64,000 nt of DNA from Heliocidaris erythrogramma (lineage: Eukaryota; Echinodermata; Echinoidea; Camarodonta; Echinometridae), in the NCBI GenBank assembly GCA_025617745.1, contig CM046868.1:20819108-20883107 (forward strand), given 5' to 3'. Under the pieces are notes generated by a model that saw only the letters and a list, made by a program, of their open reading frames with translations, searched no databases and had not been told where the DNA came from. How positions within the stretch are numbered: position 1 is the stretch's first letter; each line of letters opens with the position of its first letter. This document shows positions 7,540 to 62,466 of the stretch, piece after piece. The position numbers and the translations under genes were made by a program.

Positions 7540-8231
7540 AAAAAAAACCCGTTTTGTCTGGATACGTGGTACGACAGTGTATCACAGAAAGTGAAGGTTG
7601 GTGACCAGGGGGTTGTGCCATCAAACCGTCATAACAAGCTCAGCGACATCTCGACGCTGTCGCTCAACTTGTCCACTAACTGATTCACAAAGCCGTCTTT
7701 GCCAAGACCAGCGACAACTTCCCTGACTGTACTCCAACCTATCATATCTTTTTAGAACGCCATCACAAGCCAGCTTTTAGTTAGTCTATGGGATGCGAAA
7801 AAATGCACTCTCCGAAAAGATTTCACGTTGGTTCAAATATGAACATACCAACTGTTGGTTAAAAAAAAACAGTTTCCCTCCATAATTCGCTGACAAAAAA
7901 AAATCATTCTAAAAGGGGGGTGGGGCACAATCGACAAAAAGACGGATCCTCTATGGTCAAAATGCATACTTTTCTTCCAAGGGGGGGGGGGGCGGGGGGA
8001 AGGGCCGGAAGTGCCCCCCGCTGGATCCGTCAATGATTTATGATTATGTTTGTAATCTTTACCATGTAAACAACGAATTTCCATATATGAATGGACAATA
8101 AATGAACCTATACCTATTTTATTTGTCCTCACATTCGTCTACCATAGAAGCAGCGTCGAAACGGAAGTCTGTATCTACAGACCCATGTGAAAGACGACAA
8201 TTTATCATGTAATGTATTTTCCCTATATTTT
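6516..8231. other. Gene-free stretch with low-complexity tracts
   Basis: It contains a T/G tract near 6900, a possible LINE 3' UTR with AAATAAAG at about 7180-7350, a (GA)n microsatellite at 7500-7535 and a G tract near 7981. Open frames at 6531-6846 overlap on both strands without splice signals or motifs and are not called. Confidence 0.45.
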
Positions 8232-8599
8232 GCCTTTTTAACGCAGTACTTTGATGTAAATTATATTAAATGTATTTTCTTAAAATAAAACATTAAAAAT
8301 TGGGTCATAAGATATTTTAATTCAATTATTTTCTCTAAAGTTAACACGATATGGGTCTTCATTCCATAATTATTCAATTATGGTATCCTCTTACTTACAA
8401 ATCTAGATTCGTACATCACAAACGCATCCTAGAGCTTTCACAATGTATAAATTCTAGCCCATCTTTCCATGTAAACCGAAATATGTTTGTATCATCAGTA
8501 CTATTTTTCGCTGCCATTTTTGATATCTTGGAACAGTATGGGAAAACTGAGCCTCAAAATATGTTTAGGTAATTGACGATAAATCTGATGGATTGTGAT

Positions 8600-9480
8600 A
8601 AAGGCTATGTTTTAGCCGATGAGCATCGATATCATTGAGTTGTCGTTTATCATGCCTTTGTGAAACAGTTTGTCAGGTCCATGACATTTCCGTAGATCGC
8701 CGACAAGAGTTATGACTGTCATGGAGCTGGTTTGATGAAACGATCCCCTGGTTGGTGAACAAAACAATGGAAAGTGCATGGCGGAATCCATGGATAGTGG
8801 AAAGAGATCTACCCTTATCAAATAAGGAGATCAGAAATTCTGCAATCGTGCCTACGGAAGCCTCACGGGGTGAAACCCCGAGGTCTTCACACCAAACTGA
8901 AAAGGCCTCCAGACGGGAGTTTAAAGAGATCTCGTGGAATCTCTACGAATATCAACTGAGAGGCTCTAGAGAGTCCCGAAGCCCTAGCGTCTGCCCCGAA
9001 AACAGCCAAGTGGTCAAGTGAAGGACTTCGGGCCGATGATGGAGGATCCCGGATAGAGGCTGAGACACCAGGTCTGACCTCAGCGGGAATGGAAACGGCT
9101 GTCCATCCTGGAGGGACAGGAGTAGGGGAAACCAAGGTCCCCTCGGCCAGCGCGGGGCTACTAACAGGACCCACGCTCGACCCTCCTTGATCTTTCTCAG
9201 GACCTGAGGGATCAAAGAAGACAGAGGGAAAGCTTACCCCCGAAAATGTCCCCAGTAAATCATGGAGAGCGAAGGCATCGGGTGCCCAACCTCCGGGTCC
9301 CGTACCCGAGAGCAGTACCTCGGAAGACGGTGGTTGAGAGCGGTCAAACAAGATCATCTCTAGCGGCGCCCAAGGCGCGCGGAGAAGATCGAAAACCTCA
9401 TGATGGAGGGACCACTCGGGAGACACTTGTCCCGGGACAGAAAGTCTGGTATAAGATTTTCTTGTCCGGGAGGCTAAATT
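8600..9480 (-). pseudogene. DIRS retroelement pol remnant, copy 1 (linker and YR N-terminus)
   Basis: Read on the minus strand, the segment after the RNase H domain of a DIRS-type pol appears in pieces: VPGQVSPEWSLHHEVFDLL, then in another frame VLLVAPRWPRGPWFPLLL and GILHHRPEVLHLTTWLFSG, then FKLPSGGLFSLV. These are followed by the N-terminal helical domain of a tyrosine recombinase (ASVGTIAEFLISLFDKGRS, LSTIHGFRHALSIVL). The order RNase H, linker, tyrosine recombinase is specific to DIRS-like elements. Frameshifts separate the blocks and the recombinase catalytic region is absent, so it is dead. Confidence 0.8.
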
Positions 9481-9680
9481 TTTTTCCAACGAACTTGTTG
9501 TCCCTGATCCTTTCCGCTCTAAATCAATTTCGCGATCATAGGGTTTATTCCGTAAGCGATATAATGACGGTTGCTCCCAGCGTCTTGCTCTGGCGAGATG
9601 CGTTAGCCTTCGGACATTTAACCTGAGGTATGTGGGTTCGACTCTCAGTTTGGACATTACAAAATAACGTCTTGTATTTG
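9480..9680 (+). mobile_element. Possible tRNA-derived SINE, copy 1
   Basis: Plus-strand sequence from about 9570 resembles a tRNA-type Pol III promoter region. GTGGGTTCGACTCTCAG matches a B box, with CTGGCGAGATGCGTTAG about 40 bases upstream in A-box position, though its fit is imperfect. It ends in a T-rich tail. It interrupts the DIRS pol between RNase H and the linker, in the opposite orientation. Confidence 0.4.
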
Positions 9681-9695
9681 TATTTTTTTTTTTTT

Positions 9696-11143
9696 GCCTT
9701 TTTAACGCAGTACTTTGATGTAAATTATAATAAATGTATTTCCTTAAAATAAAACATTAAAACTTGGGTCATAAGATATTTTAATTCAATTATTTTCTCT
9801 AAAGTGAACACGATTTGGGTCTTCATTCCATAATTAGTCAATTATGGTATCCTCTTACTTACAATCTAGATTCGTACATCACAAACGCATCCTAGAGCTT
9901 TCACAATGTATAAATTCTAGCCCATCTTTCCATGTAAACCGAAATATGTTTGTATCATCAGTACTATTTTTCGCTGCCATTTTTGATATCTTGGAACACT
10001 CTGGGAAAACTGAGCCTCAAAATATGTTTAGGTAATTGACGATAAATCTGATGGATTGTGATAAAGGCTATGATTTTTAGCCGATGAGTATCGATATCAT
10101 TGAGTTGTCGTTTATCATGCCTTTGTGAAACAGTTTGTCAGGTCCATGACATTTCCGTAGATCGCCGACAAGAGTTATGACTGTCATGGAGCTGGTTTGA
10201 TGAAACGATCCCCTGGTTGGTGAACAAAACAATGGAAAGTGCATGGCGGAATCCATGGATAGTGGAAAGAGATCTACCCTTATCAAATAAGGAGATCAGA
10301 AATTCTGCAATCGTGCCTACGGAAGCTTCACGGGGTGAAACCCGAGGTCTTCACACCAAACTGAAAAGGCCTCCAGACGGGAGTTTAAAGAGATCTCGTG
10401 GAATCTCTACGAATATCAACTGAGAGGCTCTAGAGAGTCCCGAAGCCCTAGCGTCTGCCCCGAAAACAGCCAAGTGGTCAAGTGAAGGACTTCGGGCCGA
10501 TGATGGAGGATCCCGGATAGAGGCTGAGACACCAGGTCTGACCTCAGCGGGAATGGAAACGGCTGTCCATCCTGGAGGGACAGGAGTAGGGGAAACCAAG
10601 GTCCCCTCGGCCAGCGCGGGGCTACTAACAGGACCCACGCTCGACCCTCCTTGATCTTTCTCAGGACCTGAGGGATCAAAGAAGACAGAGGGAAAGCTTA
10701 CCCCCGAAAATGTCCCCAGTAAATCATGGAGAGCGAAGGCATCGGGTGCCCAACCTCCGGGTCCCGTACCCGAGAGCAGTACCTCGGAAGACGGTGGTTG
10801 AGAGCGGTCAAACAAGATCATCTCTAGCGGCGCCCAAGGCGCGCGGAGAAGATCGAAAACCTCATGATGGAGGGACCACTCGGGAGACACTTGTCCCGGG
10901 ACAGAAAGTCTGGTATAAGATTTTCTTGTCCGGGAGGCTAAATTTTTTTCCAACGAACTTGTTGTCCCTGATCCTTTCCGCTCTAAATCAATTTCGCGAT
11001 CATAGGGTTTATTCCGTAAGCGATATAATGACGGTTGCTCCCAGCGTCTTGCTCTGGCGAGATGCGTTAGCCTTCGGACATTTAACCTGAGGTATGTGGG
11101 TTCGACTCTCAGTTTGGACATTACAAAATAACGTCTTGTATTT
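9696..11143. repeat. Tandem duplication, copy 2
   Basis: This is the second unit of the 1464-bp-offset duplication. Unlike copy 1 it continues past the SINE-like tail into the RNase H part of the DIRS element, so copy 2 preserves the original junction and copy 1 is the added unit. Confidence 0.9.
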
Positions 11144-31096: not shown

Positions 31097-31690
31097 TGTG
31101 TGTGTGTGTAGGGGGGGGGGTCATGTCACAACTTTGTCCAGTTTTTGTACCCTTTTTGTGGGTACATTTGAGACTCTGTCAATAGACGGTAAAATTTTCT
31201 GTTATGCCCAGCGTATTATATTTTGTATTCATACCTTTTCCATAACCAGTAATTCTAAACCATCCTCAAAGCAGCTGCAGATATAAGACAACTGAGTTAG
31301 GATTTTATTTTCCGCCTTTCATGGATAATAAATTATTTTGCATCAAGATTATTGAATATTGATAATAATGTTTTAATAGTAAGTTTTAAAGATACCATTT
31401 ATTAAGAAGTGTTTAAATGTGAAGATAGGCTGTGCGGATAAGACTCTCTCGATATACTCGGAAATTAAATTAAATTAAATTGCTAAAATTGTGGTTGAAG
31501 TTCGAAAGTTGTGGGAACCAGACTGTGCACTTTGGAATATCTTTTCTATTGGAGGATTTACAGGGTAAGCAAACATTTTGTGGGCTTTTTAAGCACCCAG
31601 CACCCTATCCATTGATAGGTACGTCTATATTGCACGGTATAGGTCCCCCACTAACGTTTAAATTTCCCGCTCTTTACAAGAAAGCCAATC

Positions 31691-32662
31691 ATGGCGACGG
31701 GGCCGGCCTCAGAACCGGAACCCACTATTACGAGTGATGATGATGAAGGTATGTGGATAGTCAGACAAAGGTCTTATCGCAAAAAAAGTAATTTTCATCA
31801 ACCAGAGAAAAGAAAGAGAGAAAAAAGTGATGAATTTACAGTAGAAAACATAAATCAACATGAATCAACTTCTGATTCAGACATGAATACTACCATATAT
31901 CGTACCCCCACACAAAATTCGAGATCACTTCAAACAGACTTTAAGATTTTCATTGCACCAATAGACAAACAAAAGAACTTGAAAAATGTCAACCCTTTGA
32001 AAATTGCGAAAGCTATTAGAGATGTGTGTATTCAACCAGTGGAGTTTATCAAACCCATAAGTACAGGCTTGTTGGTGAAGTGCAAGAACGCCAAACAGAT
32101 GAAAGCGGTCTCACAGATCCAAACCATAGGTAATATACCTGTAAGGGCCACAGAAAGTAAAAGAGGAACAAAAGGGGTGATATATGGGGTTCCTATTGAA
32201 ATGTCAGAAGAAGAAATACTTGAAGAATTAAGAGCTCAGAATGTAACGGCAGTGAAAAGAATGGTGAAAAAAGACTGGAGAAACAAGAATGACAATGAAA
32301 CAGATCTAGAGGGGGCGGGAATAAGCCAGCCGTCACACATTCCACTGAGAAGTGTTATACTTACCTTCAATACAGATCTTCCCGAAAATGTAAACCTTTG
32401 TTACCAGTTTTTTGCAGTAAAGCAGTATATTCCTCAGGTAGCAAGATGCTACAAATGCCAAAGATTTGGTCATACTGCAAATATATGCAGATCAAAGCTC
32501 AGATGCGTCAGATGTGGAGAGCAGCACACATTTGACCAATGTAAAAAGAAATTAACACCAATATGTGTAAACTGTGGAGGGGAGCATTCGGCGGCATTCT
32601 ATGGATGTGAACAAGCAAAGAAGGCAAAAAAGTTCAGGAAATCAGAATCACTAAAAAGCTAA
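31691..32662 (+). CDS. LINE ORF1 protein, part 1 (zinc-knuckle nucleic-acid-binding)
   Basis: ORF1 of the LINE, an RNA-binding protein that packages element RNA. It starts MATGPASEPEP, has a basic region, and ends in three CCHC-type knuckles at about residues 252-315: CYKCQRFGHTANIC, CVRCGEQHTFDQC and CVNCGGEHSAAFYGC. The frame ends early after KKAKKFRKSESLKS. Shifting one base at the A6 run in GCAAAAAAGTTC (about 32625-32635) restores VQEIRITKKLTYAEASQIL and joins the segment at 32686, so this stop is secondary. Confidence 0.8.
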   Translation: MATGPASEPEPTITSDDDEGMWIVRQRSYRKKSNFHQPEKRKREKSDEFTVENINQHESTSDSDMNTTIYRTPTQNSRSLQTDFKIFIAPIDKQKNLKNVNPLKIAKAIRDVCIQPVEFIKPISTGLLVKCKNAKQMKAVSQIQTIGNIPVRATESKRGTKGVIYGVPIEMSEEEILEELRAQNVTAVKRMVKKDWRNKNDNETDLEGAGISQPSHIPLRSVILTFNTDLPENVNLCYQFFAVKQYIPQVARCYKCQRFGHTANICRSKLRCVRCGEQHTFDQCKKKLTPICVNCGGEHSAAFYGCEQAKKAKKFRKSESLKS

Positions 32663-33159
32663 CTTATGCAGAAGCTTCTCAAATATTGAAAACACAACAA
32701 ACCCAGAAACAGGCCATGCAGACTGAAGATACCATGGAAATTTCAAAACCGGAACCAAATTTAAAAGAACAAGATGGCCAAAAGCCTAATGAGAACAAAG
32801 CCCAAAATACTTCAAATGTTTGGCCTCAATTACAGGTAGCAACGCCTTCAAACTCGGCACCTACCATCTTAACCGCCGACTGCCCAAACCATATTGCACA
32901 TCCACCGTCTGAATTACCTAGCCAGGCTACCACTTCAATCAGAAGTAATACAGAAACAAGCCAAAAACCCACACCTAACATAAACTTTATAGCTACAGCA
33001 AATGACGAACAAATTATTGATTTCATATGTAAACTAATCCTTTCTTTTACAGAGGGGAAAACAGAGGAAGATATTAATGCCTTGATTTTGGCAGCAGCAA
33101 AAAAAATCGCTGCAACAAAAAAGAGAGCACTTAGTACAACATGGCAGGGATTAAATTAA
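32640..33159 (+). CDS. LINE ORF1 protein, C-terminal part after frameshift
   Basis: This segment continues ORF1 in another frame from the A6 run: YAEASQILKTQQTQKQ, then a long Gln/Asn/Pro/Ser-rich tail, then a helical C-terminus (DEQIIDFICKLILSFTEG and INALILAAAKKIA). It has no start of its own in the conserved part. It overlaps the first codons of ORF2, as is common in LINEs. Confidence 0.7.
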
Positions 33160-36100
33160 TTATGGCTATACTTTCCATTCTTCAATGGAATTCCCAAGGT
33201 TTACTAGGACACGGCAATGAACTCCTCAACCATTTGAATAATAATAAAGAATATGATATATTATGTGTTCAGGAAACATGGTTTTCCGAATATAGTACAC
33301 TATGTATTCCTGAATATACATGTCTTTCAAGAAATAGAGAAGGTCAGCGTAGAGGTGGTTGTGCCATATATGTGCATGATAATATTAATTACGAATGTCC
33401 AATTAACCATTTAAACTTAGAATTACAACAAGTGAACATTTATGTTGCTAATGAAAAAGTATCCATTATAAACTTTTACAATCCTTGTAAGAGATTGAAT
33501 CAATCAATTTTAAATGAATTACTGAAGAATGTAAATAAAAAGGATAAAGTGATAATTATAGGAGATTTCAATGCACATAGTACCCTTTGGGGCAGCGAGA
33601 AAACAGACAAAAATGGACACGCCATTGAGCAATTTATAAATGAGAACAATTTGATAGTTTTTAATGATAAAACAGGCACCAGATTGGACCCATGTACTGG
33701 AAAATTATCGTGCTTAGATTTATGTATTTCCTCCCCATCACTGGCCAGTAAGGCGATGTGGAAGGTCATGGACAATTCTTTTGGAAGTGATCACTTTCCA
33801 ATCAGTATTCAAATAGCACTTGGAAAAAATGGAAAACAAGGTAAAAATCATATTAATATGGAAAATATATCAGATGGTCATTTGTCTTTCAAGAATATAA
33901 ACTGGTCTAAATTTGCATATAAATGTGAAACTATCATGAAAGATCAATTAATTCATACTGAGGACGATGTAAAGAAGTCTTATGAATTATTTATGAAATA
34001 TTTGAAAAAATGTATTTATGAAACGATTCCGAAAAAAAGAAACTTGGAACGGAATCCAGTTCCCTGGTGGAACAAAGAATGTTCTGAAAAAATAAAAGAA
34101 AGAAATAGATTAAGTAATAACCTTTCAAGAAATATTACGTTCGACAAAATTGTTGAATTTAAGAAAAAGAAGGCAGAAGCCCAAAGAGTTCTTCGGCAAG
34201 CAGAAAGGGATTACTGGCAAGCTTTCTGCAATAAATTAGACCGATACATGCCAGAGACAAAGATTTGGGCATGTATCAAACGTTTAAATGGAGTGCCAGT
34301 TAAAAAAATACAAAACATGCCTATATTGGTTGAGAACGGGAAAGACATCTCTTCAGTACCAGAGAAAGTAGAGATCTTTGGGAAATTTTTCCAATCTTTG
34401 GGAGTAAAAGATAAAGAAATTAACAAAAAATTGACTTTGGCACCAAAGAGAAATTCTTCTGTTTTTCAAACCGAGCATGTTATCAATGAACCGTTTTCTA
34501 TTAATGAATTTGAAAAGGCAGTAAAAACCACTAAGTGGACTGCTCCAGGAAAAGATAATATCCCATATATTGTATACGAAAATATGCCAAAGGCTACAAA
34601 AGAAATTATGTTAGATATCATTAATAAGATATGGGAAACGGGAAATATTCCACGCCCTCTAAAACATTCTATATTGGTGCCAATCTTAAAACATGGTAAG
34701 GATCAAAAAATTGTCTCTTCCTACAGACCAATATCACTCACATCATGTTTTGCCAAAGTTATTGAGCGTATGATAAAAGAAAGATTACAATGGTATATAG
34801 AAAAGAATAGTTTATTGCCTAACTTCCTTAGTGGGTTTAGAAAAGGGCGTAGTACCACCGATAATATCGTTTTACTGGAAAATGACATTCAAAAAACTAT
34901 TAACTGCAGTGAACACACACTAGCAGTTTTCTTGGATGTCGAAAAGGCTTATGATAGCCTTTGGATTAAAGGATTGTTAATTAAACTTAATCAGTGTGGT
35001 ATACAAGGGAATATGTTAAATTTTTTAGAAAACTTTTTAACGGAACGTACTTTCCAGGTTAGAATTGCAAACATAGAATCCGAAACATATAAAATGCACA
35101 ATGGACTCCCTCAAGGGAGTGTTCTGAGCCCCCTCTTATATAATATAATGATGAGAGATACCCCAACGGACCCAGAAGTAATAATATCTATGTATGCCGA
35201 TGACTGTGCAATATGGACATCAGGTAAAAATGTTGACAATATTGGGATGAAAATACAAACATACTTAGACACATTATCTTCCTGGTTTAAAGAGTGGGGT
35301 TTTAAGCTTTCCATCCAGAAAACCGCACCAATATTATTTACTAAAAGTACAAATGTCTCCCCACCTGTAATAAAGTTGGAAGGAAGTATATTGACATATA
35401 AAAACACCCACCGTTTCTTAGGAATGATATTGGATAGCAAACTGACCTGGCATCCCCATATAGAAAATGTAGTTACAAGAAGTAAACGAAAATTAAATAT
35501 ACTACGAAGTTTGACAGGAACAAAATGGGGAAGTGCGTCAAAATCCTTATTAATTGTATACAGGGCAATCATAAGATCCCTCCTTGATTATGGATGTCAA
35601 GCATATGATAGTGCAGCTGAAACTACAAAGAAGATGCTAGACTCAGTGCAATATCAATCACTTAGGATATGCGCTGGTGGTCTGCCTTTAACATCACTAG
35701 CTTCACTGCAGGTGGAAATGGGAGAACTCCCACTAGATTTAAGAAGACAGATATTATCAAGTAAGTATAGACAAAACATTGAAAGACACACCAATCATCC
35801 ATTGATAAAACATATTGAACCATGCTGGCAATTCGAATATCTTAAAGGTAAGAATGTAAGTAAACCTTTCGGATATAGGCTCCAGTGCAAGATAGGGAAA
35901 GAAAGTATGGAAAAGATAAGTCCTCCAGCTTTTCCCCCATGGTTATTCTGCCCACCAATAATATCTACCGAATTAAGCTCACAAATAAAGAAATCAGATC
36001 ACCCAATTCAATTACAACAATACAGTTTAGAATTGATACACACAAAGTGGTCAAACCAACTTCACATATACACTGATGGATCCAAAGTACCCGAAAAGGG

Positions 36101-36836
36101 GATCAGTTCAGCTGCTTTTTATGTACCTTATTTCTCGATATACCAAGGAAAAAGATTATCTAACTTTACCTCTTCTTATAGGGCAGAATTGGCAGCGATT
36201 GTTCTTGCACTGGAATGGGTAGAAGATATAAACATATACACAGGCGTTGTTATATTCAGTGACTCACTAAGTGCACTCTTATCCTTACATCGACAAAATG
36301 ACGAACCCATTATTACAGAAATTCTAACTATTATTACTAGGCTTAAATATAAAGGAATTGACATATATTTTGAATGGATCCCAGGACACTGTGGAATAGT
36401 AGGAAATGAAATAGCAGACTCTTGTGCAAAAGTAGCTTTATCAAATAGAATAGAAATACATAATAAATTAACATTATCAGAAATTAAGCAACTTATATTA
36501 CAAAGTTCCAAGATACTTTGGCAAGAAAGATGGAATCAAACAAACTCGGCCTTGAAAGGATTACAACCATCGGTGACATCTCCATATATATGTAATCTGG
36601 GAAGGCAAGAAACTAGTACACTCCATCGTCTCCGCGTAGGAGTTATCGGTCTTAATCAAGATCTTTTAAGATTGGGTATTCATCCAACAGGTTTTTGTGA
36701 CAGATGCTCTGAGGTAGAAACAGTCAGACATTACCTTATAGTATGTCCGAAATATATTATTGAGAGAGCAATGCTTCTAACAGAATTAAATGAATCTCAA
36801 TCAGGGCAAATAATGGAGTATTTAAAAAAAAAGTGA
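33141..36836 (+). CDS. LINE ORF2 polyprotein: endonuclease, RT, RNase H
   Basis: 1231 codons, uninterrupted. Residues ~10-222 form an apurinic-type endonuclease (ILQWNSQGL, CVQETW, IIGDFNAHSTLWG, GSDHFPISI). RT spans ~500-760 with YRPISLTSCFAKVIERM, FLDVEKAYDSLW, LPQGSVLSPLLYNI and the catalytic YADD at about 684. RNase H spans ~970-1095 with TDGSK, YRAELAA, FSDSLSALL and GNEIADSCA, giving the D-E-D-D acids. A C-terminal CDRCSEVETVRHYLIVCP gives a CCHC motif. The protein nicks DNA and reverse transcribes element RNA there. ATG at 33141 overlaps ORF1; ATG at 33162 is an alternative start. Confidence 0.9.
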   Translation: MAGIKLIMAILSILQWNSQGLLGHGNELLNHLNNNKEYDILCVQETWFSEYSTLCIPEYTCLSRNREGQRRGGCAIYVHDNINYECPINHLNLELQQVNIYVANEKVSIINFYNPCKRLNQSILNELLKNVNKKDKVIIIGDFNAHSTLWGSEKTDKNGHAIEQFINENNLIVFNDKTGTRLDPCTGKLSCLDLCISSPSLASKAMWKVMDNSFGSDHFPISIQIALGKNGKQGKNHINMENISDGHLSFKNINWSKFAYKCETIMKDQLIHTEDDVKKSYELFMKYLKKCIYETIPKKRNLERNPVPWWNKECSEKIKERNRLSNNLSRNITFDKIVEFKKKKAEAQRVLRQAERDYWQAFCNKLDRYMPETKIWACIKRLNGVPVKKIQNMPILVENGKDISSVPEKVEIFGKFFQSLGVKDKEINKKLTLAPKRNSSVFQTEHVINEPFSINEFEKAVKTTKWTAPGKDNIPYIVYENMPKATKEIMLDIINKIWETGNIPRPLKHSILVPILKHGKDQKIVSSYRPISLTSCFAKVIERMIKERLQWYIEKNSLLPNFLSGFRKGRSTTDNIVLLENDIQKTINCSEHTLAVFLDVEKAYDSLWIKGLLIKLNQCGIQGNMLNFLENFLTERTFQVRIANIESETYKMHNGLPQGSVLSPLLYNIMMRDTPTDPEVIISMYADDCAIWTSGKNVDNIGMKIQTYLDTLSSWFKEWGFKLSIQKTAPILFTKSTNVSPPVIKLEGSILTYKNTHRFLGMILDSKLTWHPHIENVVTRSKRKLNILRSLTGTKWGSASKSLLIVYRAIIRSLLDYGCQAYDSAAETTKKMLDSVQYQSLRICAGGLPLTSLASLQVEMGELPLDLRRQILSSKYRQNIERHTNHPLIKHIEPCWQFEYLKGKNVSKPFGYRLQCKIGKESMEKISPPAFPPWLFCPPIISTELSSQIKKSDHPIQLQQYSLELIHTKWSNQLHIYTDGSKVPEKGISSAAFYVPYFSIYQGKRLSNFTSSYRAELAAIVLALEWVEDINIYTGVVIFSDSLSALLSLHRQNDEPIITEILTIITRLKYKGIDIYFEWIPGHCGIVGNEIADSCAKVALSNRIEIHNKLTLSEIKQLILQSSKILWQERWNQTNSALKGLQPSVTSPYICNLGRQETSTLHRLRVGVIGLNQDLLRLGIHPTGFCDRCSEVETVRHYLIVCPKYIIERAMLLTELNESQSGQIMEYLKKK

Positions 36837-44023: not shown

Positions 44024-44286
44024 CTAAACGATATTCGATTCTGGTAGAGCAATTTTCCGAATTCCGGGAACAATTCTATCCGTCGATGTTGAGGGTTGAA
44101 CGTCTATCGTCGTAACTGTTCTTTTGTTTTGACTACCAGAAGGTTTGGTCGCGGGTTTCGATCGCTTAACCGATGAAGTCATGTTGGCGTAGTGGTCATT
44201 GCAGTAGAGCTCACGTAGGATATAGATGACCACCGCTGCTAGCACGAAGATGACGATGCCTCCAGCTATGCTGATCGAGATTACAG
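44024..44286 (-). CDS. Gene B terminal exon: membrane helix and tail
   Basis: Preceded by acceptor ATTTTTAG. The exon begins with two bases, CT, which join the G of exon 1 to give Ala. A hydrophobic helix of ~23 residues follows (VISISIAGGIVIFVLAAVVI then YIL), then RELYCNDHY and a basic, Ser/Thr-rich tail (SSVKRSKPATKPSGSQNKR) ending ESNIV. The layout (phase-1 intron, helix at the exon start, tail to stop) is the same as in gene A, but the sequences are not obviously alike. No family recognised. Confidence 0.7.
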
Positions 44287-44656
44287 CTAAAAATATAAAT
44301 GAAAAACGATTTATGGGTCTGTAATGACTGTAAATGTATAGAGCTGTCGACAAATTGTTCTTACAAGATTGATTATACCATAATAATTGCACCTGCATGC
44401 CGAAATTGATTTTAAAGATATAAATCAAGTGTTACACTTTCAGCCAATACAAAGTTCTACATAATTTTTTTAAAAAAAAAATTGATTGCTCTATGAGGAG
44501 TTTGAAGGATACATTTCCCACAAGGATATTGTAGTTTTCAAAATTTCGAGTTTTCCTTTTCACATATCCTAGAATTTATAGTTTCTGTGCGTATCAAATT
44601 TCTGAGATATCTGAAAATACAATTACAGCTTCATGTATGTATATATTATATATATA

Positions 44657-45018
44657 CAGTGTGAGTCAGAAAAAATGTTACACTTTTTTAATTGAGTATT
44701 GTTTTAAAAATGTGGGTTTAAGTTAACGCAGTAGTTTTTAGCATATATGGATGGATGATTTATTCCTTTGTTGTTTTCAATGTTGCTGTTACGGTTGAGT
44801 GCACAACAGCCATTGTTTTGATAGATAGTCCAAACTCATTTGCGCCAAGTCGTATGATTACCTGCTGAAACAGAGACAACATTCAAACAAACAATGAGCG
44901 TGAAGTTTATGGATATGTTCAATCATGACAAATGAACATGAGAACCAATCAATAAATGAATAGATAAATAAGTGATCTTCACTGAAAAACAGTGTAACAT
45001 TTTTTCTAACTCGCACTC
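44657..45018. mobile_element. Tc1/mariner-like MITE, ~362 bp, in gene B intron
   Basis: The left end CAGTGTGAGTCAGAAAAAAT preceded by TA is matched by the inverted right end (ATTTTTTCTAACTCGCACTC). Inverted arms run ~28 bp (through TGTTACACT). The right TA appears mutated to AA. No transposase. Confidence 0.75.
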
Positions 45019-45353
45019 AAAATAAAAGAAGGCCTATACATTATTGGACCAAACCCAAACTCAACCAACAGGTGTGCAATTACCAAATATTGCTTTCCAT
45101 TTAACTGTATTGTTCAGCCAGGTCCTTCACCAGACAGGTCCCCCACCCCATTAAGTACATTTTAACACATCTTATATTGTTAACGTTTATGTTATTTAGT
45201 ATTATTTAATCTGAAAGTATATATAGCACCGCTTAATTGTTGTACAAAAATCAGGATGATGATGGAGTATGACTTCGAAACATGTTCCGTTTTAAAACTT
45301 ATGTCTTCTTTGTCGTCTTTATTTTTAAGTTATGGCGTGTCGTTCTTTTGGAA

Positions 45354-45360
<7 letters not shown>

Positions 45361-45384
<24 letters not shown>
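45361..45384. repeat. (AT)n microsatellite
   Basis: Pure AT dinucleotide repeat; another stands near 45548-45560. Both are in the gene B intron. Confidence 0.85.
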
Positions 45385-45434
45385 ATTGTAAGGAAATAAC
45401 ATATACAACAGCTTTGGCAACTCTCGTGGAAATA

Positions 45435-45547
45435 AATACAATGTGAAAGGAAATGAGAGAATAATAGTTGCGTTACTTAAATCAAAGTTCCCCAGAGCTG
45501 TCCTCCCAAAACGGAACCATTATTCTCTCATTTCCTTTCACATTAAA
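45435..45547. repeat. Inverted repeat with ~29-bp arms
   Basis: AATGTGAAAGGAAATGAGAG with AATAATAGTT pairs with AACCATTATT and CTCTCATTTCCTTTCACATT across a ~55-bp loop. The loop TTAAATCAAAGTTCCCCAGA also occurs at 18655-18680. Confidence 0.8.
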
Positions 45548-45594
45548 TATATATATATATAATCAATTGAAGTATATGCTATATGTTTGTATTA

Positions 45595-45720
45595 TCATCT
45601 TCAGAAACCGAAGAAGGCCGTGAAGGCCGAAAGCTTGATCCAAGAAAGTTGAAGTTCAGCTACGTCCTTTGTCCCCTGTCTCATCAATCCTCACACTATA
45701 CAATTTACCGAGACGCCGTC
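45595..45720 (+). repeat. Possible Penelope-like element fragment with hammerhead-like core
   Basis: CCGAAGA, a GGCC...GGCC stem and GAAAGCTTG resemble the hammerhead-type core carried in the terminal repeats of Penelope-like retroelements. C stands where the catalytic core has U (CUGANGA). No RT or GIY-YIG sequence is attached. Confidence 0.35.
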
Positions 45721-45954
45721 GAAATGTTAAAGTTGGGTATCTTCGCATATCGCATACACTCGATAATGTTACGATTATAATATTATGATATAATATGTGG
45801 ATAATTGTTGAGCATGAGGTGTAACTGAACATGCTTATATCATTAAATATATTTCAATATGTTCAAATTCAATATAAAAAAAAAGGAATTAAAATGGTGT
45901 ACCCCTTCCCGTCTCTCTCACTCTAAAAAAAAAGACATACCGCGAGACACTTAC

Positions 45955-45988
45955 CTCCCTTTTCCACACTTTCCATGGGTTCATCCAT
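45955..45988 (-). CDS. Gene B first coding exon
   Basis: ATG in a strong context (A at -3, G at +4) begins MDEPMESVEKG and ends in one base before a near-perfect donor, GGGAG|GTAAGTGT. An in-frame TGA lies five codons upstream (ACATGAACT) with no acceptor between, so this ATG is the true start in this frame. Joined to 44286-44024 across a 1668-bp intron it gives 98 codons plus stop, an acidic 11-residue N-terminus without a signal peptide, then the helix. That predicts a small signal-anchored membrane protein. Unidentified. Confidence 0.6.
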
Positions 45989-47654
45989 AGTGCGAATAGT
46001 TCATGTAATATCTATCGGTGTGTATACAGTTGGACAATGTTAATGTTCCATGCGAAATTGAACTCCTCAGGTTTCACCAGGCAAAGACGCCAAAATGCAC
46101 TTCACTCTGTAAGATCCATTCCCGTAAACAGTTTAATTTACACGTTCAGTTGGAAAGTTGGAATCTACTTCTGATATCAAAGATTTTGGTATTCGTCTTT
46201 ATGTAGTTATACACCACCGTGTATTACACACACACACACACACGCAAACATATATATTAAGTAACCGCTCAGCATTTGGTAAGTCGTGTTCTTGGTGGTA
46301 TGTACACACAGCTGACTTCTCTGTGACACGTTGAATGTATTTTATTGATTCGTAGACTGATTCCGAAGGGGGTGCACGCACGTATACGTACAATTCCGTT
46401 TATGATTTCACTAAAACTGTTCAGGCCTGCCTCAAAACTTTGCTGAAATACTCTGTCAAATCCGGCTTTTGAGTTGCATCCTCCTTGAAAAGTGACCCCT
46501 GGTCACGTTTTAGCGTCGGACCCCTGTGGTCTACCCGCGCACCAAAAAAGCAGTGTGGGATTTGAAGTTGGCCACTTCCCTTGCGTGCAAATACCCCCGA
46601 TACGGCTGTGTTCATTTCACCGTGGCCCTCCGATCCCCTCTTTCATGTAAATTCCCCTATGCTTTGTTCCCTCTGATGGGTGAATACAATTCGATGGCAA
46701 ACACAGTCTAAGCTCATGTCTGTTCAAGGTGGAATCGAATAATTGGCAGTTGAATAGCGTGACCGCACCCGAGACAATTAATCAAAGGGTTATTATATGA
46801 ATCTAACGAGAACTGCGCCCGGACTCGAACCGGTACCAGGCTCTGCCAGGGTAGGCTTAACTTGTGGCACCATATCTATTTCAGTCCATGATAATCTTTC
46901 TCTGATTCTCATTTTGTTTATTAATTGTATTGTAATACATGGGGTACAGATTAGGAATGGCTACCCCCTTTCCCGCACACATGTAGGCGGAAAACAAAGT
47001 TCCAATTTTCATTTGAGTAGGGCCTACTTCCTCAGACAAAGCCTTTAAATAGGTGTGGGTTGTAGGCCTACTTGTAGGGAATCAGTCATGACTTTCCCGT
47101 GACAACAAAATAAATAGATAAATACAGAATCACATCATATAAATAATCAAAATCATATAAATTATAACTGCACTTTTTAATGGGGGGGGGGGGGGGGGGC
47201 ATTATTAGAATTCATTTGAACAAAATTCCATATAAATACATTACAAATAAAGAAGATCCACTGAAAAGCTGGGCTTGTTGTGTAGGCCCTTCCAATGTTA
47301 CGTATACTGTGCGCCGTTATGAATATACAAAATAAATAGAATGCATATTTACATAATTTTATACAGTTGCCTCACATCAAAGGCATTTCTTTCATGTACA
47401 TCAAAATATAAGCCATCACAAAGTGGAGACCTTTCTGATCATGTAAGAAAACGGTTTTAAAGTCAGAGACATGTAATCATAAAAGGACTGGCCAGCGGCC
47501 ATGTTGCGCCCTCCGAAAATGTGATTAATTTCAGATTTGCAGATCTCGTCAAACAACTTCATGCATATTTTCTTATAGTTTTGCGGCATCTTTTAATACA
47601 TTTGCGTATGTATAGCTTCGGCAGTTATGGTGTTACGTAATACTTAAACATCAC
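45989..47654. other. Upstream region of gene B
   Basis: The 5' UTR and promoter of gene B must lie here but no TATA element is convincing. (CA)n is near 46227. A B-box-like CCGGTTCGAGTCCGGGC (minus strand, about 46810-46835) may be a SINE or tRNA relic. A G tract is near 47182. Open frames near 46421-46615 lack motifs. Confidence 0.4.
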
Positions 47655-55396: not shown

Positions 55397-57260
55397 TCCA
55401 ATTCGTTACAGAGATATTCAAATTAGAATTATATGCAATAAAAAAGAAAATAGTCAATCAATATTACAAAAGATCCCTCAAATAAATAGGAGTACAGAGC
55501 ATAATTTGCTTCTGTTATTTTCATAATATTGAGTAAAACTTGTTGTAAATCAATGTTATTCCATATTTATTTTTGCTGCAAGAGTGGGTGTGTATATTAG
55601 TATACTGTTCAATGACAAGCAAACATATCTACAATATACAAATGATTTATGTCTTAATGAATAACTGGCATTTCCAGTTAAGATATATATCTATTGAATC
55701 CATTGTGCACACATATTTACCCAATAATGTAAGTTTGTAAACAGAGCAGCAAAAGGTAACATGTCTGCATATAAACTTTTTAGAGGACTATCTAGAGATC
55801 CAGCATATATCTTTTGTAGATCGTTTCATAAGAGTGCATGACAATTAAACATTGAATATAAGTCATGTGCATTACCAGCAAAGAGCTTGAATTGGCAAGT
55901 TATATCACATGTGGGAATGAAAAAAAAAATTCTTCATTGGGGCTTCATTGAATCAGTAATGATTGAATGACCAGAAAATTAATGTTTATTTACTGAATAA
56001 AAACAAGAAAAAAAATCATGCATTTTTCAAATTAAAGCTAGCACCGTTTCTCCCCTCATTCATAGTACAAAATAGTTCTTTGATTTACCATGCAGTCTAA
56101 TAGAATACCATGCAAGTATTCATTTAAAATGTCTTTCAATAAGAAAATATGTACAATGTCTCCATTATTCTGGAACAAGGAATAATCATTTGCACTTTGC
56201 TCCCAAACTTTTTTTTTTCTTCAGAAATACAAATCATCAGCTGAAGGATAATTCCACTAAAACATCAAATCCCAGTTTGCTCTTTGGCAAGGCATTGATC
56301 TACAAAGCCACTCCCTACCCAAGAGGGAATGAGGACAAGGGAGGCTGCCAAATACATGGTGTGATAACTCTTTAAAGCTGTCCAATAAAGCTAAACCTTG
56401 CTTAACTTAGTCCACTGAGTTCTTGAAGTCAAAGTGGAAACCGAAAATGTCTGTATAAATGACTGTAATTATGTAACAAATTAAAGAAACAAAAATACTT
56501 TGGTCATGAAATGAAAATGAGAAGTAATTTTAAAAAAGACAACTTATTTAATTTTCATTTAGTTACAGAATTAAGTTAATATTTACAGGATGAAGAAGTT
56601 GAGACTTGACACTCCAGACACTTTGACAGGGACCATTACGTTTGTCCTAACACAGTTGAAGACAGTTTCTTTTGACATTTTTTTGCAATGATTACTGGTT
56701 AAACACTGCCTATACAAAGCAGGTAGGATTTCACTTCAAAAAGTGCAGCTTTGGCCATGCATTACAAAACAGAATGTTACTCTTGTAAAACTACATGTTG
56801 TATACAAGTTTGGATCTACTGAAACACTGTAACTCTCTACATATTGCGTGATGGGACAAAATGAGGTTTTAGAACTCCATTGAAATTTCTATGAAGGGAC
56901 TATAAGGTTGTGCTATAACTGGGCATTTTTGTTTAGCATGCTATATTCAATGTTATGTCCAAGTTTCTATGCAACAACAAACTGCAGTTGAAAAATTAGA
57001 CCAAAAGCCAGAGTCATAAATTGATGACCACCAATACAACAAATTCCATATCAGGAAAACACATCTACATAAAGTGCCAAAATACTCCTCCTCCATTTTT
57101 CTCTCTCAGGCAATACATTACTTGAACATGCTTTAACTGGAAATTAAATTGGGTGACCTTTTGTGAGTTTTGTGGTAAGCTGTCACAGATTTTCCTATCA
57201 TTTGATCAATAATTGACATACAATGTAGAGGCAGCCCAATGATGTGGGGATCCTCCATAA
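55397..57260. other. Gene-free stretch
   Basis: AT-rich. CCAATAAAGC near 56381 could be a poly(A) signal but no exon is attached. No element ends recognised. Confidence 0.4.
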
Positions 57261-58048
57261 CAGTGGCATAATGAGCCAACAAATTTAAGGGGGCTGAGCC
57301 TGCAATAAGAATTGAACTATTTTCTGAAGCGCAAGGAACACCCACATTATACTCATATATAAATCCTTTGAAGGGGGGGGGGGTACATCCCCATCCCTCC
57401 TACAAATCAGAATAACTTGCATTTCGCTGTAACATTAAAATGTTGCACTTTCAGAGTCCAACGCCCTTGCTAAATTAAATATATTAAATTTTACGCTTCG
57501 TAGTTTGAAACATTGCATTTTAGACCACTTTTATGCACACAAGTACCATAATGATCAAAGTCTGAGCTTAATATCCTCCCTTTTCTTTTTTTCTCTTACG
57601 GTAGTAGAAAAAGTAGAGAAGTAGAAAAGTGTGCTGTACCATTAACTCATTCATTTCATGATAGTGTGTGAGCCTATTGTAAAGGGGCTAGTTTGGGTAT
57701 AAGAGGACAGTTCCCCTCCTATAATAAGAAAATTGGTATAAACATATTATGTCTTGCATGCAAAAGATGTATATAGAAGTGGAGATACTATAAAAAATCA
57801 GCCATTTATACGTTCTAAAAGACGTACTAATGTAATCAAAAACATACAATTTTTCTAGCCAGGTATATAAAGTTCTTTCTCTCTTCTTGCTTTCTTTCTT
57901 TTTCCTCTTTCCTTTTCTTTCTTTCCTTTTCTTCCTTTCTTTCTCCTCTCTTTTCCTTTTTCCCCTTGTTTTTCTCTGTTTGGTCGTGGAACTTTTTTTT
58001 TTGGGGGGGGGGGCTGTAGCCCCCCAAGGCCCCACCAGTACGCCAGTG
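57261..58048. mobile_element. Degenerate G-tract element
   Basis: CAGTGGCATAATGAGCC at the left and (inverse) CACTGGCGTACTGGTGG at the right, with G tracts near 57376 and 58003 and a CT-rich tract at 57880-57965. The pairing is weak, so boundaries are tentative. Confidence 0.4.
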
Positions 58049-60305: not shown

Positions 60306-60542
60306 TCACAATTTCTCATCTTTCTTCTGGTTACCAACTTGAAAGCTCTTTACGTTGTTGTCCTTGCTGGCATCCTCCACACTCTGTTCAAACTTCTCCT
60401 GATTAACAGCCTTCTCCTGATTAACAGCCTTCTGCCACTCGTTCTCAAAGACCTCCTTAGACTGCTGAACGGCCGTATCTCCATGGCTCTCCCGCTCCAT
60501 CTTAGTGGCAGCTCGAGCAGCGTTGTACTGCACACGCGTTAC
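60306..60542 (-). CDS. Gene C terminal exon
   Basis: A pyrimidine-rich tract and AATAATCTAG precede GTAACGCGTGTGCAG. The exon is open in phase 0: VTRVQYNAARAATKMERES, then DTAVQQSKEVFENEWQKAV, then a duplicated AVNQEK encoded by an 18-bp tandem repeat at about 60398-60433, then a charged tail ending NQKKDEKL. The composition suggests a soluble, helical, possibly coiled-coil C-terminus. It joins the 62779-62903 exon in frame. I do not recognise the family. Confidence 0.65.
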   Translation of the reverse strand, partial: VTRVQYNAARAATKMERESHGDTAVQQSKEVFENEWQKAVNQEKAVNQEKFEQSVEDASKDNNVKSFQVGNQKKDEKL

Positions 60543-60916: not shown

Positions 60917-61848
60917 AACAAGAGTATGTCAAATGAAGACAGAAAACTGACCTCTACACCAACCCACATCTTCATAAATAATTGGATTGAGTAAAAACTC
61001 AACATATCTTCTAATGTCCTCCAGTGAAAAGAACTGTTTGTTCCACTATGAGAATTTAGAAAAGGGATACTTTCAGTATATGGGTACAAAATAAATTAGA
61101 AAGATCTCCATCATCAGAGTTGTCAACATCATGGCCACATTTCCAATTAGAGATTCCCCATGTCATTAGTAATATCAAGGAGTTATCACAGAACTGGAGT
61201 TACAGCAGAAGCGAGCTTCTTTGAACCGGGTTTGATGCCGCGCGATAAACGCAGCGGGTGTTCTTCTGTGATTTACTACAGCTGTTTACTTGGGTTTCGT
61301 GCCGAGGCTGGATCTGCGCATGGGCATCTGTAGCCGATTGAGTAAAATGACGTCATCTCAACTTCTTGCTTTTTGTGAAAATCGCAAACGCAGAGCATAA
61401 ACACGAGGATAATTTCGCTTTAGAAGAAGAATTACCGTTCTTGTCCGAAATCGACGAAATGGGATTACAACTAGATGAACGGGATTTGGATAGAGTGGGG
61501 AGACAATTTTCGAACTTTAGATATCTTCGAAAAGAAGAGTAGACTACAGTACAGCCTGCATCGGTAGTGTAGCTCTGACAGGCTGGCTGGCTCTTTCAGC
61601 GAATGAATCCCACTTGGCAAACGACAAAAGAATTAGCAGACGAGAGTCCACTCCAAGTGAATGACCATTTTATTTGTGTATTTTCTATATGTTGACACTC
61701 GTTGACACTCTAATAACAAGGTGGGTCTTGATGAAAAAGATTTGCTCTTTCCGAAGTGATATGTTTCAAATGTTGCAGAGTTTCTGAACATATTATTACA
61801 TAAATATGAAAACTAGAATATCCCTGAAGGTGATTAATACCCCTGCCC
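60917..61848. other. Intron of gene C, no feature recognised
   Basis: A GC-richer part at 61200-61340 holds short direct words but no element ends. Confidence 0.4.
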
Positions 61849-62466
61849 CAATGTATGTGCCAAATTTCCTGAGCATTGCTCCAAAAATGAGGAAGTGGTT
61901 TGATGTGCAATAATTTCGAGTTTTATTGCCATATGTTGTTACCATGGTGGCAAGGCATTTCCGACACATTCCAAAAATACGTCTTGCACATCTTCACCAC
62001 AAGACCAATGTGTGTGCCGAATTTCATGAGCATTGCTCTAAAAATGAGGAAGTAGTTTGATCCACAAGATTTCCCACTGATTTATTGCCAAATGTTGTTA
62101 CCATGGTGGCAACGCATTTCCGATGTCTTGCACATCTTCACCACAAGACCAATGTGTGTGCCGAATTTCATGAGCATTGCTCTAAAAATGAGGAAGTAGT
62201 TCGATCTGCAAGATTTCAATCTGATTTATTGCAATAATATGCAGTTACCATGGCAACGTAGTTCCGACACATTAAAAAAAATATGTCTAGCAAATCTTCA
62301 TCTCAAGACCAATGTGTGTGGTGCATTTCATAAGCATTGCTCAAAAAATGAGGAAGTAGTTCGATGCGCAAGATTTGCAATGGACCGACGGACCGCCCGG
62401 CCGACCGACAAACCGTATGCCGATTCCTATATACCCCCTTCAAACTTTGTTTGACGGGGGTATAAT
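61849..62466. repeat. Tandem array, ~145-160 bp units, with terminal hairpin
   Basis: About 3.7 units carry CATGAGCATTGCTCTAAAAA, TGAGGAAGTAGTT, GTTACCATGG and CAAGACCAATGTGTGTG. The array ends in GGACCGACGGACCG-type sequence and a hairpin, TATACCCCCTTCAAA with GACGGGGGTATA. Confidence 0.8.

Follow-up and report, generated by a model that had tools for sequence, protein, structure and literature searches.

The closest described counterparts of the gene reported here are the type III membrane proteins SMAGP (small cell adhesion glycoprotein, about 97 residues) and glycophorin C, each with one helix, no signal peptide, a short outside N-tail and a basic C-tail. In the experiments presented in PMC8249459, knock-down of EMC5 reduced insertion of four out of five type III proteins tested; SMAGP was affected and BCMA was not. 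Hemotin/Stannin (88 amino acids), described in PMC11475943, is likewise a small single-helix animal microprotein, and the same source reports that microproteins are enriched in transmembrane segments. As a further point of reference, the tail of CD28 carries a membrane-proximal YMNM sequence, and PMC11966486 presents Y-x-N-M as the CD28-type motif, which binds p85 and GRB2.

Here we examine a predicted gene, gene B, located on the minus strand of a 64,000-nucleotide stretch of DNA that is animal in character and rich in transposons (we refer to this whole stretch as the window). With a probability of roughly two in three, gene B is a real animal gene with two coding exons, specifying a 98-residue single-pass type III protein whose role would be that of an adaptor or accessory subunit in the membrane. 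The predicted product falls below the 100-residue limit of microproteins and, since these are enriched in transmembrane segments, would be of a familiar type by architecture only. The protein is likened to SMAGP and glycophorin C by architecture and to Hemotin/Stannin by size and shape, in neither case by sequence. It differs from SMAGP and glycophorin C in its N-tail, which comprises 11 residues without glycosylation sequon. With CD28 it shares a membrane-proximal Y-x-N-M, a likeness of four residues only; gene B has no predicted ectodomain and is not a member of that family. Coordinates of all features are given in Table 1.

Table 1. Features of gene B and of other elements in the 64,000-nt window; splice scores are given with ranks where available.
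Feature	Position	Strand	Remarks
Gene B exon 1, coding part	45955..45988	-	34 nt; MDEPMESVEKG and first base of codon 12
Gene B splice donor GTAAGT	45949..45954	-	phase 1; 4th best of 3,498 minus-strand GTs (score 7.69)
Gene B intron	44287..45954	-	1,668 nt; GT-AG; phase 1; 32% G+C
Gene B acceptor tract	44287..44306	-	ends TTTTTAG; 95th best of 3,290 minus-strand AGs (score 3.39)
Gene B exon 2	44024..44286	-	263 nt; predicted transmembrane helix, cytoplasmic tail and TAG; 46% G+C; Fickett 1.18
Gene B hydrophobic segment	44216..44286	-	residues 12-35; codon 12 is split, its first base belonging to exon 1
YANM	44180..44191	-	residues 44-47; compatible with the patterns Y-x-N-M and Y-x-x-phi
ATTAAA	43604..43609	-	closest candidate poly(A) signal, some 415 nt past stop; weak, single hexamer
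CNNM penultimate exon	62903-62779	-	Pfam PF25562, 27.9 bits (cut-off 27)
CNNM final exon	60542-60306	-	joined match 39.6 bits, E = 5e-10, to profile position 171 of 172
Gene A start exon	25639-25618	-	22 nt; MAASLSP; donor 25617, phase 1, top-scoring on the strand
Gene A terminal exon	5486-5113	-	phase 1; one helix and long tail; 12-bp tandem repeat, HPQG units
Non-LTR retrotransposon (LINE)	31655-36836	+	zinc-knuckle-like ORF1; 1,233-residue open ORF2
Repeat copies	8228-9173 and 9692-10637		spacing about 1.46 kb; four blocks with 97-100% identity; tyrosine-recombinase-like frames

Re-reading of the minus strand confirmed all coordinates originally given for the two exons. The spliced frame is open over 98 codons across the predicted splice 45955/44286, so that the matching phase claimed for the GT-AG intron holds. 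Donor and acceptor contexts read GAG/GTAAGT and ATATTTTTAG/C, respectively. Both sites had been called consensus; the donor is among the best on the strand, and the acceptor is good but not outstanding (scores and ranks in Table 1). The upstream in-frame stop and the strong start context were found as predicted: the start codon at 45988 is preceded by A at -3 and followed by G at +4, and an in-frame TGA (46003-46001) begins 15 nt 5´ of it. As no AG occurs between this TGA and the ATG, the 34-nt exon, if joined to exon 2 in frame, should be the initial coding exon, the only escape being an acceptor within the 34 nt themselves. A further upstream ATG, at 46004, stands in weak context and overlaps the gene B start; it could reduce gene B translation. 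The intron contains a pair of inverted repeats (44651-44689 and 44986-45024; 39 nt each, with 85% complementarity and a spacing of 296 nt), which probably represents a small DNA transposon, and a hairpin at 45432-45552.

How easily might such a structure arise by chance? Splice sites were scored with animal weight matrices and coding character with the Fickett table, for which no training set is required, and segments of the same sequence served as control. We searched for models with a donor and an acceptor scoring at least as high as those of gene B, a purine at -3 and G at +4 of the start, an intron below 5 kb and a terminal exon of at least 80 codons with a hydrophobic segment (at least 2.0) in its first 60 residues. 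Gene B was the single model on the minus strand; the plus strand had none, and 20 first-order Markov copies generated from the minus strand yielded none either, in a test made after the fact with thresholds derived from gene B itself. Setting the thresholds to 6 for the donor and 5 for the acceptor instead left no model on either strand, since the gene B acceptor scores 3.39 only. The three minus-strand donors that outscore that of gene B (25617, 26523 and 32364) all lie at least 13 kb downstream, the last of them inside the LINE.

Statistics of exon 2 point in the same direction. Its Fickett value is close to those of two CNNM exons described below (1.13 and 1.16); an exon of gene A, a second predicted gene on the same strand, has 0.91. 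The background of 2,558 same-length segments, which overlap and are thus non-independent and do not include the major transposons or the exons named here, has a mean of 0.58 (SD 0.15). No background segment reaches 1.18, nor does any of the 698 with an open frame. Positional composition of exon 2 is coding-like as well, G amounting to 29% at position 1 and 14% at position 2, and T to 16% and 32%. In a scan with 120-base segments, the top segment of the exon 2 cluster starts at residue 13, directly past the acceptor. The statistic has its limits: it gives 0.51 for ORF2 of the LINE, which is clearly coding and is thus missed, and short segments form 42 clusters at 201 nt (above 0.95) and 146 at 120 nt (above 1.0) over the whole window, 40 of each set being listed. 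It also peaks in wrong frames and on antisense strands of true exons and therefore marks coding at a place, not its frame or strand.

It could be argued that there is no gene at all and that open frame and splice sites coincide by chance. The window holds 263 stop-to-stop frames of at least 60 codons, and A+T-rich DNA yields hydrophobic segments by chance too, which counts against gene B. The codon-usage score gives exon 2 no support: 73 of the 263 frames score equal or higher and the true frame is the lowest of six. Training used 210 codons taken out of three exons, and these exons themselves rank first. Likewise, the G+C content of exon 2, higher than that of the intron, is matched by 6.8% of segments between 38 and 50 kb and by 8.8% in the whole window. 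Against these points stand the periodicity of exon 2, which tops every same-length background segment, and the joint quality of splice sites and start, met with in none of the 20 random copies. We regard a chance origin as quite improbable. Exon 2 is very probably coding and the gene B model as stated is probably real, as judged from sequence. The original prediction of a two-exon gene is thus well supported by a frame that stays open across the splice, by donor and acceptor, by the periodicity of exon 2 and by the uniqueness of the model on both strands.

Whether gene B is complete depends on what lies upstream. The nearest upstream gene on its strand to which a name could be given is a CNNM (ACDP) metal transporter gene, of which the window contains the 3´ end. 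Its two joined exons match PDB chains of CNNM2, CNNM3 and CNNM4, and both alignments shown span the exon junction. Since the joined Pfam match runs to profile position 171 of 172, the gene terminates at 60306, leaving 14.3 kb between it and gene B. The final CNNM exon carries an 18-bp tandem repeat encoding AVNQEK twice. In the preceding intron there are an open plus-strand frame with an acidic, gene-like stretch (61351-61539), without Pfam match, and four direct repeat copies spaced by 144-160 nt (61824-62392).

The 14.3 kb between the two genes could in principle hide exons of a larger type I protein, a receptor or an adhesion molecule, with exon 2 as its last exon and the 34-nt start exon unused or serving as an alternative start. 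A phase-1 intron ahead of a transmembrane exon suits modular extracellular proteins, phase-1 introns being reported to flank most shuffled extracellular modules (PMC8001218). Phase 1 also applies to the donor of the CNNM exon before 62903, as follows from the reading frame of the exon examined, and among the clusters listed there is a coding-like stretch on the same strand (57142-57378, Fickett 1.04). This stretch, however, has no Pfam match, and the CNNM penultimate exon ends in phase 0, which makes an in-frame join to exon 2 impossible. Pfam scans of 44.3-64 kb in three minus-strand frames (E up to 0.1) detected no ectodomain; CNNM was the only match, in one of six chunks. Further scans at E 0.01 extended the coverage to the whole minus strand and to the plus strand, three frames each, with the LINE (about 31.7-36.5 kb) deliberately omitted on the plus strand, and left CNNM as the sole domain; chunks with frames judged transposon-like by eye were unmatched. 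Such chunk scans are not very sensitive, the CNNM exon scoring 20.8 bits, less than its cut-off, within its chunk and 27.9 alone.

The search for other exons gave a similar picture. Among initial exons with a phase-1 donor of at least 4.0 between 60.25 kb and exon 2, the best one besides that of gene B has a donor of 4.91, compared with 7.69. Only one internal exon candidate of at least 50 nt, a weak one, joins exon 2 in phase 1 between 44.3 and 60.25 kb, at cut-offs of at least -1 for the acceptor and 2.5 for the donor; exons of poorer splice quality, or ones carrying unrecognised domains, could escape such searches. As these searches between CNNM and exon 2 yielded no Pfam domain, no initial exon with a comparable donor and no strong internal exon, a complete gene B is preferred to a receptor whose ectodomain exons stay hidden; the latter we consider unlikely. 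The gene had originally been called complete. In view of the upstream TGA and of the lack of a convincing ectodomain exon in the searches and among the clusters listed, this is likely, short of demonstrated.

Gene A follows the same plan as gene B on the same strand, with a tiny start exon, a phase-1 intron and a transmembrane terminal exon. The predicted intron is about 20 kb long, its two exons being joined on the basis of phase and donor only. The joined product (131 residues) matches no Pfam family above cut-off, and its second exon shows no detectable sequence likeness to gene B (E = 2.3). As both genes use the same phase, swaps of starts would keep the frame, and a genuine exon 2 might be a tail shared by several alternative start exons, exon 1 included. 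No second good initial exon was found between CNNM and exon 2, and this arrangement seems to us extremely unlikely. A more ambitious proposal would pair the two genes downstream of CNNM as a cluster of small start-exon-plus-helix genes, gene B being a so far undescribed, lineage-specific type III mini-receptor or adaptor that signals through nothing but its helix and a tail with a CD28-like Y-x-N-M; we hold it for very improbable.

Two further kinds of elements were noted in the window. ORF2 of the LINE contains, by eye, sequence resembling endonuclease, reverse transcriptase and RNase H. The repeat pair at 8228-10637 with tyrosine-recombinase-like frames is presumably a DIRS or Ngaro element.

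We return to gene B as a complete two-exon gene and to its predicted protein. It would consist of an acidic N-tail of 11 residues, a helix (residues 12-35) and a basic polar C-tail of 63 residues ending in SNIV. There is a single hydrophobic segment, with a 19-residue Kyte-Doolittle maximum of 2.81. According to the positive-inside rule, the basic side of a helix stays cytosolic. The residues before the helix carry a net charge of -3 and the 25 past it one of +3, which under this rule would place the N-tail outside and the C-tail in the cytosol. The single-pass topology claimed for the protein is therefore well supported as a prediction, one helix and charges fitting the N-out/C-in orientation.

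Features of the tail allow more cautious statements. A cysteine at residue 40, close to the membrane edge, is a possible palmitoylation site. YANM sits eight residues past the predicted helix end and weakly suggests recruitment of SH2 adaptors. In 100,000 shuffles of the tail, Y.NM appeared in 0.19%, Y..M in 2.9% and Y..[LIVMF] in 36%; the motif was noticed after the fact and these figures are not evidence of signalling. PDZ ligands have S or T (class I) or a hydrophobic residue (class II) at position -2. A C-terminal PDZ ligand was considered and rejected, as SNIV has N at this position and belongs to neither class.

Searches for relatives yielded no Pfam or NCBIfam match to the gene B protein above curated cut-offs, and tRNA and Rfam scans gave no matches. 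Two PDB matches with E near 1 were rejected as non-significant, and matches to DUF6724 and PRK06762 as lying under every curated cut-off. The profile of the C-terminal region of BAMBI, a TGF-beta pseudoreceptor, overlaps weakly with the helix and juxtamembrane residues (PF19337, 12.7 bits where the cut-off is 27, E = 0.11); with Pfam finding no ectodomain upstream, this candidate was rejected too. Pattern searches returned 18 matches in virus contigs and 249 in prokaryote contigs, none of them a confirmed relative, as is expected of an animal gene. The statement that the protein belongs to no known family thus stands for the collections covered, namely Pfam, NCBIfam, PDB and sets of prokaryote and virus contigs; annotated relatives may well exist beyond these.

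How might such a protein work? It would be inserted into the membrane as a type III protein without cleaved signal, its helix serving as a reverse signal anchor, and the ER membrane complex (EMC) would probably aid its insertion, like that of the majority of similarly shaped proteins tested. The helix would then pair with a larger membrane protein, while the tail, with its cysteine near the membrane edge and YANM, would dock cytosolic partners or sorting adaptors. Eleven outside residues could hardly bind a ligand by themselves. A small adaptor or accessory subunit pairing via its helix appears the likeliest role, to judge from the shape of the predicted protein only.

Gene B alone settles no open question. 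Start exons of about 30 coding bases, such as the one predicted here, mean that annotation easily skips or mis-starts the genes that bear them. If its splice junction is confirmed, gene B would add one more small membrane protein to an animal gene set and would provide a clean case for testing type III insertion.
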